Positions 27,635 to 58,041 of a stretch of 64,000 nucleotides of DNA are shown here, piece after piece. The notes below the pieces were generated by a model. The model did no database searches, was not told where the DNA came from, and was given only the letters and a program-made list of their open reading frames with translations. The DNA is taken from assembly GCF_000759975.1 (NCBI RefSeq), contig NZ_JNAM01000011.1, positions 248,001 through 312,000 on the forward strand, given 5' to 3'. The first letter of the stretch is position 1; every line of letters starts with the position of its first letter. This DNA comes from Prochlorococcus marinus str. MIT 9302 (GTDB lineage Bacteria; Cyanobacteriota; Cyanobacteriia; PCC-6307; Cyanobiaceae). The position numbers were made by a program, and so were the translations under genes.

Positions 27635-27718
27635 TTCTTTACAGAAGAAAAGAAATTTTTTTAATTAATAATCAAAACCTTTTAATATTTGTTATGTTCA
27701 TTAAAAAAGCTATGGAAT

Positions 27719-28825
27719 ATGGTCGAAGTAAAAAGAAGTGATTTTTTAATAAAGCCATTTCTAAAAAGAAATAATTTTAGAGCTTTCTATCAAATTTTTA
27801 CAACTTTAATTCCAATAATTTCTATTTGGTTGGTTGTTTACCAAATAATCAATCATCCTTTTTTATTAGTGATAAAGATTTTTTTATTAATACCTATTAT
27901 TTGTCTTCTAACGCTATTTTCTTCTAGGACATTCTCATTAATGCATGATTGCGGTCATAATTCTCTTTTTACACAAAGTAAATTAAACCGCTTCTTTGGA
28001 TTTTTACTTGGTTTAGTAAATGGTATTCCCCAGAAATCCTGGTCAATTGATCACGCATTTCATCATAGAAATAATGGAAATTGGGAAATTTACAAAGGTC
28101 CTATAGATGTTTTAAGTCTTGAAGATTATAATTCTCTATCAAAAAGAGAGAAAATATTTTATAAATTAAGTCGTAATTGGATAATGCTTTTCCCTGGTGG
28201 CTTTTATTACTTAGTTTTAAAACCTAGATTAGGGCTGATTATTATTATTTTTAATTTCATTAAAGATATATCAGAAGAGACTTATATCAAGATAAAAAAC
28301 AGAGAAATTTCTAAACTTTTAGCTATTAATTCAAAAGTTAAACCACCTTTTTCTGATTATGGAGATAATTTTAGCGAACTATTTGAACTAATAATAAATA
28401 ACATCGTGGTAATAATAGGATGGATTTTTATGTGCAAATGGTTTGGGTTAATTTTTTTCTTATCATTTTATTCCCTTTTATTAACTCTATCAGCAGCAAT
28501 TTTAATAAGTGTTTTTTTCGTACAACATAACTATAAAAATTCATATGCTAAAAATACAAAAAATTGGAATATTGTTGAAGGAGCGATTTTAGGTAGTAGC
28601 AATTTAGATATACCTAATTGGCTAAATTGGTTCTTAGCAGACATATCGTTCCACAGCATTCATCATCTCTCTGAGAGAATACCAAATTACAACTTAAGGG
28701 CTTGTCATAAAGCAAATATTCATTTACTTCATCAGTCAACATTCTTAAAATTGAGCGATTTCGCAAACTGTTTCAAATATATTATTTGGGATAATAAAAA
28801 TGAAAAGTTGATTCCAATAACTTAA
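27719..28825 (+). CDS. Membrane fatty acid desaturase
   Basis: The 368-residue protein has the three His boxes of the desaturase superfamily: HDCGH, HAFHH and HSIHH, with at least four membrane helices around them. Such enzymes place double bonds in acyl lipids using ferredoxin electrons and a di-iron centre. The regiospecificity is not clear. ATG 27719 is preferred; a TTG at 27689 lies upstream in frame. A second, different desaturase follows at 30537, with small genes between. Confidence 0.88.
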   Translation: MVEVKRSDFLIKPFLKRNNFRAFYQIFTTLIPIISIWLVVYQIINHPFLLVIKIFLLIPIICLLTLFSSRTFSLMHDCGHNSLFTQSKLNRFFGFLLGLVNGIPQKSWSIDHAFHHRNNGNWEIYKGPIDVLSLEDYNSLSKREKIFYKLSRNWIMLFPGGFYYLVLKPRLGLIIIIFNFIKDISEETYIKIKNREISKLLAINSKVKPPFSDYGDNFSELFELIINNIVVIIGWIFMCKWFGLIFFLSFYSLLLTLSAAILISVFFVQHNYKNSYAKNTKNWNIVEGAILGSSNLDIPNWLNWFLADISFHSIHHLSERIPNYNLRACHKANIHLLHQSTFLKLSDFANCFKYIIWDNKNEKLIPIT

Positions 28826-30536: not shown

Positions 30537-31700
30537 TTGATTAATATAAAATTTTCAGGTCTTAAAGGCCAAGCGCTTGAAATAAAGAAAGAAGATATTC
30601 CAAGCATAAAAAAATTTAAGGATGTTATTCCAGATCAATATTTTAAAAGCAATACGATAATTTCTTTGAGGTATCTTTTACAAACAGCTTTAATTCAATC
30701 ATTAGTAGTTGCAATAGGTTTATCTATTCCATTTACTCCAAACATGATCCCAGTTTGGATCATTTACTCGTTACTGTCAGGTACCACTGCGATGGGATTC
30801 TGGGTAATTGCCCATGAATGTGGACATGGAGCATTTTCTAAAAACAAAACTTTGGAGACTATCACGGGCTATTTACTACATTCTTTACTACTAGTTCCTT
30901 ATTTCTCTTGGCAGCGTTCTCATGCAGTTCATCATCGATTCACAAATAATATAACCAATGGTGAAACTCACGTTCCTTTAGTCATTAAGGGCAATGGTAT
31001 TACTGAAAAGCTTGGAGGAGAAAAAGAATTACATTTTTCCAATTCCATAGGTAAGAAAAATTATGGGATTCTTCAACTTGTTTTACATCTAATATTTGGC
31101 TGGCCTGCTTACTTACTTACAGGTAGTACTGGAGGAGTTAAATATGGAACTTCAAATCATTTCTGGCCAATCAAACCATTTTCCAAGGCATTATGGCCAT
31201 CAATATGGACTAAGAAAGTTTGGATATCAGATATTGGTGTGGCTTTAACATTATTAAGTGTTTTTTATTTTATTTTTAATTTTGGATTATATCCAGTATT
31301 AGCGATGTATATTGGCCCTCTATTAGTAGTTAATAGTTGGTTAGTAGTTTATACATGGCTTCATCATACAGATTCAGATGTGCCCCATTTTTCAAACAAG
31401 GATTTTTCATTTATTAGAGGAGCATTCCTTTCTATTGACAGGCCTTACGGTAAAATCCTTAATTTTCTTCATCATAATATTGGTTCGAGCCATGTAGTTC
31501 ATCATGTCTGTCCTACTATTCCTCATTATCATGCTAAGAAGGCTACCGTCTTAATTAAAAAAGCCTTTAAAAAGGCATATCTTTTTAATCCTGATCCTAT
31601 TCCTAAAGCACTTTGGAATATTGCTTGCAATTGTGTTGCTGTTAGGTCAGATATCATAGAAGGAAGATATATCTGGCAATCTTCATACAATAAAAGATGA
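30537..31700 (+). CDS. DesA-type membrane fatty acid desaturase
   Basis: The 387-residue protein starts at TTG. Its His boxes HECGH, HAVHH and HVVHH match acyl-lipid delta-12/omega-type desaturases. HTDSDVPHF and a C-terminal HHVCPTIPHYHAKKA are typical of that group. It acts in membranes with ferredoxin and a di-iron site. It is of a different subfamily from the enzyme at 27719. Confidence 0.92.
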   Translation: MINIKFSGLKGQALEIKKEDIPSIKKFKDVIPDQYFKSNTIISLRYLLQTALIQSLVVAIGLSIPFTPNMIPVWIIYSLLSGTTAMGFWVIAHECGHGAFSKNKTLETITGYLLHSLLLVPYFSWQRSHAVHHRFTNNITNGETHVPLVIKGNGITEKLGGEKELHFSNSIGKKNYGILQLVLHLIFGWPAYLLTGSTGGVKYGTSNHFWPIKPFSKALWPSIWTKKVWISDIGVALTLLSVFYFIFNFGLYPVLAMYIGPLLVVNSWLVVYTWLHHTDSDVPHFSNKDFSFIRGAFLSIDRPYGKILNFLHHNIGSSHVVHHVCPTIPHYHAKKATVLIKKAFKKAYLFNPDPIPKALWNIACNCVAVRSDIIEGRYIWQSSYNKR

Positions 31701-44853: not shown

Positions 44854-44950
44854 AATCCTTCGATAAAGATGCATCATTAAATTGGCCGGAATTTATTAAT
44901 GAAAGAATTCAATTAATAAAATTCTTGCGAAGGATTTTTATCAGTTTATG
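44854..44950 (+). ncRNA. Nested hairpin with T-run upstream of the EF-hand operon
   Basis: AATCCTTCG (44854-44862) pairs with CGAAGGATT (44938-44946), followed by TTTTA. Inside, GAATTTATTAAT pairs with ATTAATAAAATTC with one bulge. The structure ends 36 bp before the EF-hand start codon. It could terminate a small upstream RNA or act as a leader attenuator for the operon. Confidence 0.45.
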
Positions 44951-44982
44951 CGTTAATAAGTTAAACACATTAAATACTTTTT

Positions 44983-45285
44983 ATGAAAAAATTTTCATTG
45001 TTAATTTTATTACTAACCTTTTTTATTGCATTACCTTCTTATTCCAAGCCAACCAATGAGAAGAATAACTTTATGAAGATGCGCAGGCGTTTTGAAAAGA
45101 TTGATAAAAATAGTGATGGACTTATTTCTAAAGAGGAAATGATGGAAGCTCACCAAGATCGCATAGATAAACTATTTTTGAAATTTGATAAGAATGGTGA
45201 TAATAAATTATCAAAAAAAGAATTAGCCGCAGTAAGGCAAGAAATGAAAAAAAAGATAAAAAAAGTAAGGAATGAAGGGGAGTAA
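44983..45285 (+). CDS. Exported EF-hand protein (two calcium-binding loops)
   Basis: The 100-residue protein has a signal peptide (MKKFSLLILLLTFFIALPSY). Two canonical 12-residue EF-hand loops lie at residues 41-52 (DKNSDGLISKEE) and 69-80 (DKNGDNKLSKKE), with acidic or Asn ligands at positions 1, 3, 5 and Glu at 12. A basic helix ends the protein. It should bind Ca2+, or a similar cation, in the periplasm. It is first in an operon with a sigma factor and a membrane protein, which suggests a sensor role. Confidence 0.88.
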   Translation: MKKFSLLILLLTFFIALPSYSKPTNEKNNFMKMRRRFEKIDKNSDGLISKEEMMEAHQDRIDKLFLKFDKNGDNKLSKKELAAVRQEMKKKIKKVRNEGE

Positions 45286-45288
45286 AGA

Positions 45289-45846
45289 ATGTCTAAGGAC
45301 CTCAGTTCCTATATGCTTAAAACGGCCGAGGGTGATAAGGATTCTTTCCGATTCATTGCAAATGCTTTGGGATACAAAATGCATGCAACAGCAATTAAAA
45401 TATTGGGCTCATCGCATATTGCTGATGCGGATGATGTCGTACAAATTTCTTTAATTAAAGTTTGGCAATCAGCTCCTCGCTGGAAAAACAAAGGAAGTAT
45501 CGAAGGATATATTTACAAAATAGTTTTTTCGTCTTGTATGGATTTTATTAGAAAATATAAAATTACTGACGAATTTAAAGATAATTATTCCAACCTAGAA
45601 ATTACAAAAAACGACAATTACAGGACATATGAATTAAGAAAAATGCTCTTAAAAAATATTCAAAAACTTCCTAAAGATCAGAAAGAAGCTATTTTGCTAC
45701 ATTATTTTTCTGGATACAAACAAAAGGAAGTTTCTAATCTTATAAAAAAAAGCAACAAGGCAACTGAAAGCCTTATTATTCGTGCTCGCAAAAAGTTAAA
45801 AACTATTTTGCCAAAGGATATTCTGGAGGAATTATTGCATGTCTAA
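45289..45846 (+). CDS. ECF-type RNA polymerase sigma factor
   Basis: The 185-residue protein has sigma region 2 (ADADDVVQISLIKVWQSAPR, then GYIYKIVFSSCMDFIRKYK) and region 4 (LKNIQKLPKDQKEAILLHYF, SGYKQKEVSNLIKKSNKATE, SLIIRARKKLK). It lacks regions 1 and 3, as ECF factors do. It starts 3 bp after the EF-hand gene and overlaps the next gene by 8 bp, so the three are made together. Its divergence from standard ECF sequence makes the subgroup uncertain. Confidence 0.9.
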   Translation: MSKDLSSYMLKTAEGDKDSFRFIANALGYKMHATAIKILGSSHIADADDVVQISLIKVWQSAPRWKNKGSIEGYIYKIVFSSCMDFIRKYKITDEFKDNYSNLEITKNDNYRTYELRKMLLKNIQKLPKDQKEAILLHYFSGYKQKEVSNLIKKSNKATESLIIRARKKLKTILPKDILEELLHV

Positions 45847-46099
45847 ATTAAAAAAGGAACGTCTTAATCAAATGATTGAGAATGCACTTTCTTATAAACA
45901 AGAAGTAAAAACAATTAAATCGAATTGTTTTCATGGCAGGCTTAAAGGCTTAATTATTAAACCAAAAGTTTATGGATTAACTTTTGCCTTATTGATTATT
46001 TCTTGCGTTTTTATTCCTCAAATAGTGATATCAAGAAATTTTTTGGATATTAATGAAATTAATGATTATGTGACTTATGTAATTATTGAGGATTTGTAG
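45839..46099 (+). CDS. Putative anti-sigma factor (one membrane helix)
   Basis: The 86-residue protein has a basic cytoplasmic-type N-terminal part of about 45 residues, one helix (YGLTFALLIISCVFIPQIVI), and an outside tail rich in Asn/Asp and Ile. It starts inside the last codons of the sigma gene. This size, topology and gene order are typical of anti-sigma factors, but no known anti-sigma domain such as the ZAS zinc motif is visible, so the role is inferred from context. Confidence 0.7.
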   Translation: MSKLKKERLNQMIENALSYKQEVKTIKSNCFHGRLKGLIIKPKVYGLTFALLIISCVFIPQIVISRNFLDINEINDYVTYVIIEDL

Positions 46100-46209: not shown

Positions 46210-46338
46210 TTAGAAGATACCTGGCACAATTTGACCAGTAAAATAGTATGCTCCAACTAGAGCAAATATTCCAAGCATTGCAGCTTTACCGTTAAGCTTT
46301 TCAGCTTTTTCAGTCATGAATTTTTTAGCGAATTCCAT
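46210..46338 (-). CDS. hli: High-light-inducible protein (42 aa)
   Basis: It reads MEFAKKFMTEKAEKLNGKAA, MLGIFALVGAYYFTGQIVPG, IF. The Hli motif AEKLNGKAAMLGIFAL is complete. A nearly identical but damaged copy lies at 54369. Confidence 0.93.
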   Translation of the reverse strand: MEFAKKFMTEKAEKLNGKAAMLGIFALVGAYYFTGQIVPGIF

Positions 46339-57597: not shown

Positions 57598-58041
57598 TTA
57601 TTTACATTCGGCATTTCCAATACCTGCACCTAAAACTGCACCTAAAGGTACACTCCAACCATATGCATCACTTTTTGATAGAGATGCTGCAATTCCACCA
57701 CCAATCAATCCACCTAAAGTTGTACTTCCAGTACATTTTGGAGCAGGTTTATATTTAACATACGAAGTTTGTGGTTCAGTCTTGTGATGATAATGGTTGA
57801 ATACCTTGCGATGACTATTGCATGGGATAGAAACCTTCTCACTGTAAGATTTGACATAACCAGGAGATATTAAAGTGCCTGGAATATATTTTTCCCTATA
57901 TTCATAACGGAAACACTTGTTCTCATATGCGTATCCTTTTTGTGACTCATATGCTTGTCGATTAATGTGATCTCCATTGCTCTCATAAGCATTGACTGGG
58001 AAAGAAGCACCCAATATAAGAGTTGCGATAAGAATTTTCAT
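57598..58041 (-). CDS. Exported glycine-zipper protein
   Basis: The 147-residue protein has a signal peptide (ILIATLILGASFPVNA), an aromatic, Cys-containing middle (NKCFRYEYREKYIPG, SIPCNSHRKVFNHYHH), and a C-terminal glycine zipper (STTLGGLIGGGIAASLS, PLGAVLGAGIGNAECK). The 2TM glycine-zipper tail suggests membrane association in the periplasm. A perfect palindrome lies 92 bp upstream of its start. Confidence 0.75.
   Translation of the reverse strand: MKILIATLILGASFPVNAYESNGDHINRQAYESQKGYAYENKCFRYEYREKYIPGTLISPGYVKSYSEKVSIPCNSHRKVFNHYHHKTEPQTSYVKYKPAPKCTGSTTLGGLIGGGIAASLSKSDAYGWSVPLGAVLGAGIGNAECK

Follow-up and report, generated by a model that had tools for sequence, protein, structure and literature searches.

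A three-gene locus in Prochlorococcus marinus MIT 9302 probably constitutes an autoregulated, horizontally moving transmembrane relay cassette in which an exported EF-hand protein acts on the tail of a membrane-anchored anti-sigma factor. In a more specific version, which seems to us possible rather than probable, a calmodulin-lobe-like EF-hand protein docks on the 22-residue tail of a minimal anti-sigma factor, forming a complete three-protein relay that is mobile among HLII Prochlorococcus and recruits strain-specific envelope genes by promoter sequence. Such a cassette would represent envelope signaling that a streamlined phototroph can acquire and shed in the form of a plug-in module.

Genes and products of the locus

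The window (the whole stretch of DNA analyzed, 64,000 nucleotides) contains three tandem genes on the forward strand for a 100-aa EF-hand protein, a 185-aa ECF sigma factor and an 86-aa membrane protein, here termed protein 3. The first two are separated by a 3-bp gap and the last two overlap by 8 bp. These reading frames, coordinates and spacings agree with a preliminary description of the locus, and Pfam matches bore out its assignment of the first two products as an EF-hand protein and an ECF sigma factor. The features are as follows.

44929-44955, + strand: ECF-type operon promoter, likely autoregulatory; conserved in 21/21 copies with differing upstream flanks
44983-45285, + strand: exported EF-hand protein, putative periplasmic sensor or ligand, 100 aa; Pfam match and N-terminal hydrophobic core
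45103-45138, + strand: EF-hand loop 1, DKNSDGLISKEE
45187-45222, + strand: EF-hand loop 2, DKNGDNKLSKKE
45289-45846, + strand: ECF sigma factor of 185 aa, with region 2 spanning residues 32-90 and region 4 residues 120-170
45839-46099, + strand: putative anti-sigma factor (protein 3), 86 aa; ~44-residue cytoplasmic N-terminus, one transmembrane helix and a short periplasmic tail
45974-46030, + strand: transmembrane segment of protein 3, residues 46-64; hydropathy maximum 2.38
46031-46096, + strand: acidic periplasmic tail of protein 3, SRNFLDINEINDYVTYVIIEDL, proposed EF-hand docking site on the basis of conservation and charge

The product of gene 1 matches EF-hand_5 above the Pfam cut-off over two stretches (4e-13) and has a Sec-type hydrophobic core at its N-terminus. 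We defined an EF-hand as a 12-residue loop with Asp at position 1, Asp or Asn at positions 3 and 5 and Glu at position 12; both loops are canonical, with Asp1, Asn3, Asp5 and Glu12 all present, and two loops with calcium-ligand spacing are retained in each of the 20 copies scanned. Judged by its sequence, the protein is a putative Ca2+ binder. Its mature form is basic, with a net charge of +6 to +12 across 20 copies. Searching the genome (1,745,343 bases, 17 contigs) with PF13202 returned no further EF-hand proteins.

The second product matches Sigma70_r2 (PF04542, 2.9e-10), Sigma70_r4_2 (PF08281, 4.8e-10), both above the Pfam cut-off, and the sigma70-ECF family TIGR02937 (5.8e-21). It contains sigma-70 regions 2 and 4 only, and its 185 aa fall within the range of about 160-200 aa of ECF (group 4) factors. 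Six sigma-70 family genes were found in the genome; the other five are open frames of 308-394 aa, and the sole ECF gene is that of the cassette. The earlier characterization of the genome as having few regulators is, for sigma factors, correct. A survey of cyanobacterial sigma factors listed family A.1 exclusively in 14 Prochlorococcus species (PMC11119718), and our literature search returned no paper combining Prochlorococcus, an ECF sigma factor and an EF-hand. In a sigma factor tree, one long branch, placed with modest support close to proteobacterial ECFs, unites the Prochlorococcus sequences, and no donor is singled out.

Protein 3 has a single hydrophobic segment, as expected for the one-helix membrane protein named in the preliminary description, flanked by a basic side N-terminal of the segment and a 22-residue acidic C-terminal tail (net charge -2 to -7 in 20/20 copies). 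Its cytoplasmic part contains the conserved motif RLxQMIENALSYKQE. No family in Pfam or NCBIfam matched, including class I (ASDI) anti-sigma domains, and the Hx3Cx2C zinc motif found in many class I (ASDI) anti-sigma factors is absent. Profile searches against anti-sigma families, proposed earlier as a check, likewise gave no match, and no homology was detected to any anti-sigma family or PDB chain, CnrY included, to a CnrY-like neighbor protein by hhalign, or to the small proteins of Phaeobacter and Croceicoccus. Size and topology fit a class II (CnrY-type) anti-sigma factor, and the AlphaFold2 model is helical (residues 3-40 and 42-85) but poor (pLDDT 68, pTM 0.27). In CnrY, the class II domain consists of two helices that wrap the sigma factor (PMC4598750, PMC7406223), and sequence similarity between anti-sigma classes is very low (PMC7406223). 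The proposed anti-sigma role of protein 3 thus draws support from topology, gene overlap, co-evolution and parallel architecture elsewhere, but none from sequence homology; we regard protein 3 as a putative anti-sigma factor. In one related locus (L046:7022-7108), a weak second match to the C-terminal tail of protein 3 (E 0.009) lies 1.4 kb from the unit and may be due to chance.

No operon terminator emerged from local sigma-70 and terminator scans. Convergent with the cassette lies a gene for a small high-light-inducible-type protein (46210-46338, - strand), which a hairpin with a T-run at 46186-46170 would terminate. Upstream of the cassette, an AT-rich stretch contains two fatty-acid-desaturase-like genes (27689-28825 and 30537-31700, + strand).

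Linkage, co-evolution and mobility

Searching 266 genomes of the genus detected the sigma factor in 22, or in 9 of the 87 that are at least 90% complete; its close relatives in the public genome collection are all from Prochlorococcus, among them MIT 9401. A sample of 300 family genomes from outside the genus yielded a single weak, unrelated match (G219), which was rejected as an instance of the unit and is flanked by phage- or Bacteroidota-like genes. A phage origin was also considered and rejected: no convincing IMG/VR relative carried the sigma factor or the membrane protein, and annotated phages gave just unrelated sigma factors with <30% identity.

For comparison of gene order, we retrieved the loci of 20 relatives. 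The three-gene order was intact in 20/20 readable relatives despite widely differing flanks, and no gene families other than the three of the cassette were shared by all loci. Every intact copy has the 8-bp overlap between the sigma factor and protein 3 genes; the gap between the first two genes mostly measures 3 bp. The sigma factor gene is broken in G538, and in G306 the unit is known from a contig fragment only. Unlinking of the three genes in relatives had been named as an outcome that would speak against a functional unit; linkage instead holds through many changes of context. Several copies are located near tRNA-Pro or tRNA-Ala genes, and several stand beside sugar-nucleotide genes identified by eye. 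The sigma-less genome G304 retains, downstream of psbA, the promoter motif in intact form and, after it, a broken EF-hand start (L118, G304:C13:389500-393049, about 3055-2980, - strand). This remnant is a trace of cassette loss.

Pairwise distances among the three genes correlate at 0.91-0.94, values reached in 0 of 2000 permutations, with the highest correlation between the sigma factor and protein 3 (r=0.94). After removal of the most divergent copy (AG-402-L23), the three correlations are 0.71-0.82. Distances of the sigma factor and of the core protein SerA correlate at only r=0.07; nonsynonymous differences have a median of 0.105 for the sigma factor versus 0.015 for serA. Median dN/dS values of 0.22 (EF-hand gene), 0.18 (sigma factor gene) and 0.40 (protein 3 gene) indicate purifying selection on all three genes. 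Together with the gene order kept in 20 relatives with different flanks, this selection makes the association more than chance. Gene identities, linkage, co-evolution, purifying selection and mobility are thus direct outcomes of the computation.

A shared promoter motif and candidate target genes

The operon promoter comprises a -35 element GAAGGA (44929-44934), a 16-nt spacer and a -10 element CGTTA (44951-44955); CGTT is a usual -10 core of ECF promoters. GAAGGA-N15/16-CGTT recurs in 21/21 copies, 29-36 nt upstream of the EF-hand gene's start codon. Conservation of the locus starts at CGAAGGA, and sequences further upstream are mostly unrelated. The match in the window had an expectation of 0 in shuffles. 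On the strength of this conserved motif, the operon is likely autoregulated through GAAGGA-N15/16-CGTT.

We searched 40 genomes for further sites with a promoter model trained on operon promoters only (R2), which was used instead of a model (R1) whose training included target promoters and which is therefore circular for those. In the MIT 9302 genome, R2 recovered the operon promoter at E=4.9e-11, the window copy being among the training rows, and detected no second strong site; the regulon there may comprise the operon alone or use weaker sites. Across the 40 genomes, secondary sites at E<1e-3 were restricted to genomes bearing the unit, and the one strong match in a sigma-less genome was the cassette remnant of G304. 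The motif and this restriction are computational results, and transcription from the sites may be inferred from them.

Two groups of candidate targets emerged. One is a DUF1800-DUF1501 gene pair in G415, preceded by a site at 4.2e-6; DUF1501 occurs in 4/266 genomes, two of which bear the unit, and a weaker motif before DUF1800 in G315 was absent from the R2 list at E<=0.1. The other is an exported glycine-zipper gene preceded by sites in G491, G521 and G519 (4.3e-6 to 4.7e-4) and by a weaker motif in G365 (R2 E 0.03); the next gene downstream, on the same strand, encodes a trypsin-like protease. The four genomes with this target have it no more than about 7 kb from the unit and therefore do not count as four independent events. 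The motif was missing before the DUF1800 gene of G410 and the glycine-zipper homologue of G493, both counted as sigma-less, although both genomes are incomplete and absence of the sigma factor is uncertain. Operon and target promoters share both elements yet have different spacer sequences, a pattern that speaks against simple duplication. DUF1800 and DUF1501 genes also adjoin related ECF units in Proteobacteria, and their position beside the Ensifer and Caballeronia units is an independent sign that they are genuine targets or partners. Weak sites in G381, inside a gene, and in G531, without a clear target gene, were discarded. In the window, a gene at 57598-58041 (- strand) encodes an exported protein whose C-terminal glycine-zipper-like region resembles the C-terminus of the putative target of other strains; no sigma motif was found upstream of it.

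A candidate transmembrane relay, its alternatives and its precedents

The arrangement resembles that of ECF systems whose sigma factor is held by a small membrane protein. In the mechanism that we favor, protein 3 would bind the ECF sigma factor and keep it inactive at the membrane, with the ~44-residue cytoplasmic N-terminus working as a CnrY-sized (class II) anti-sigma domain. Because the 22-residue periplasmic tail is too short for a sensor domain, the EF-hand protein would act as the periplasmic regulator. After export it may bind the acidic tail, and its state, whether set by Ca2+, another ligand or an envelope condition, would be coupled to sigma factor release. As the tail is acidic and the mature EF-hand protein basic in 20/20 copies, a direct dock is the simplest coupling. 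The released sigma factor would then activate GAAGGA-N15/16-CGTT promoters, always that of its own operon and, in some strains, also those of exported or envelope genes, namely the glycine-zipper protein and the DUF1800-DUF1501 pair. As read from these sequence features, an EF-hand-to-anti-sigma relay is plausible. The interpretation offered in the preliminary description is thereby borne out in part, and the results on mobility and promoters take it further. Ca2+ in the open ocean is about 10 mM and nearly constant, and this high, steady level makes Ca2+ unlikely as the variable signal. Damage to the envelope, local pH, another metal or whether the EF-hand protein is itself present may instead provide the signal, and Ca2+ may serve as a structural cofactor.

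The EF-hand protein could alternatively be the output of the system, an exported Ca2+-binding or envelope-stabilizing protein made on demand by the autoregulated sigma factor, with the anti-sigma factor sensing envelope stress itself, for example by regulated proteolysis. This would suit the position of its gene, first in the operon behind a sigma-type promoter, the fact that other motif-bearing genes likewise encode exported proteins, and the situation in Caulobacter, where SigV strongly induces cabp and loss of CaBP alters sigV only slightly (PMC13171946). We nevertheless consider it unlikely: the protein 3 tail, at just 22 residues, has no domain of its own, the EF-hand gene accompanies the sigma/anti-sigma pair throughout whereas other motif-bearing genes are sporadic, and the charge complementarity between EF-hand protein and tail is found in all copies.

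Less probable again is a reading in which protein 3 has no anti-sigma role, and either the sigma factor is regulated solely at transcription or the small membrane protein is unrelated to it. The want of homology to any anti-sigma family would fit, but not the translational overlap, invariant in intact copies, the conserved RLxQMIENALSYKQE, the distance correlation with the sigma factor, which is the highest of the three, or the arrangement found in Phaeobacter, Ensifer, Caballeronia and Roseomonas, where a small protein is likewise encoded after the sigma factor. Very improbable, in our view, is a reading of the cassette as selfish or decaying, a mobile regulatory element that brings the host no benefit: the three genes are all under purifying selection, and matching promoters precede other genes in strains that bear the unit. 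Its sporadic occurrence (22/266), the G304 remnant and the broken sigma factor gene of G538 are nevertheless what such an element might leave.

With the EF-hand protein as its only separate periplasmic component, the Prochlorococcus unit is a stripped-down form of a known ECF design; its nearest precedents are Caulobacter CaBP-SigV, Cnr and an EF-hand/sigma locus of Phaeobacter. In Caulobacter vibrioides, an exported EF-hand gene lies directly upstream of an ECF gene (PMC13171946, 2026). The two systems share this adjacency, with activation in Prochlorococcus suggested by the conserved promoter; in Caulobacter the sigma factor promotes cabp, an anti-sigma factor has been postulated, and the cabp -10 element begins with CGTT like the Prochlorococcus motif (PMC13171946). 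They differ in that Caulobacter CaBP has three EF-hands rather than two, in that the Caulobacter genes are reported to be monocistronic with an internal sigV promoter whereas the Prochlorococcus genes are operon-like with one conserved promoter, and in that the membrane link is not named for CaBP-SigV while the Prochlorococcus unit encodes a candidate. CnrYXH of Cupriavidus metallidurans similarly combines a sigma factor (CnrH), a small class II anti-sigma factor whose cytoplasmic domain is short (CnrY) and a separate periplasmic sensor (CnrX). In Prochlorococcus, however, the sensor candidate is the EF-hand protein and no CnrX/Metal_resist (PF13801) match was found in the unit, the gene order is unlike that of cnr, and protein 3 has no sequence homology to CnrY-type proteins.

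A plasmid of Phaeobacter sp. G2 (N1037_22080-22065, L082) carries EF-hand, sigma factor and small one-helix protein genes with the same 8-bp overlap; it differs in having three EF-hand stretches (Pfam), a small protein of 138 aa that is not detectably homologous and an extra Metal_resist periplasmic sensor gene after the small protein. Ensifer adhaerens pC (L182) and Caballeronia SBC2 (L180) encode a related ECF sigma factor and a small downstream protein beside DUF1501 and/or DUF1800, the families that bear the motif in G415 and G315. In contrast to Prochlorococcus, no EF-hand gene occurs within the stretches examined, and the annotation of Ensifer includes a periplasmic heavy metal sensor. 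A Cnr-like version with copper genes occurs in Croceicoccus, Aurantiacibacter and Novosphingobium. Lastly, in two loci from other cyanobacterial families (L073 and L076, f31), genes for a small one-helix protein, an ECF sigma factor and a Spy/heavy-metal-sensor-like exported protein are clustered, an analogous arrangement in which the periplasmic partner differs.
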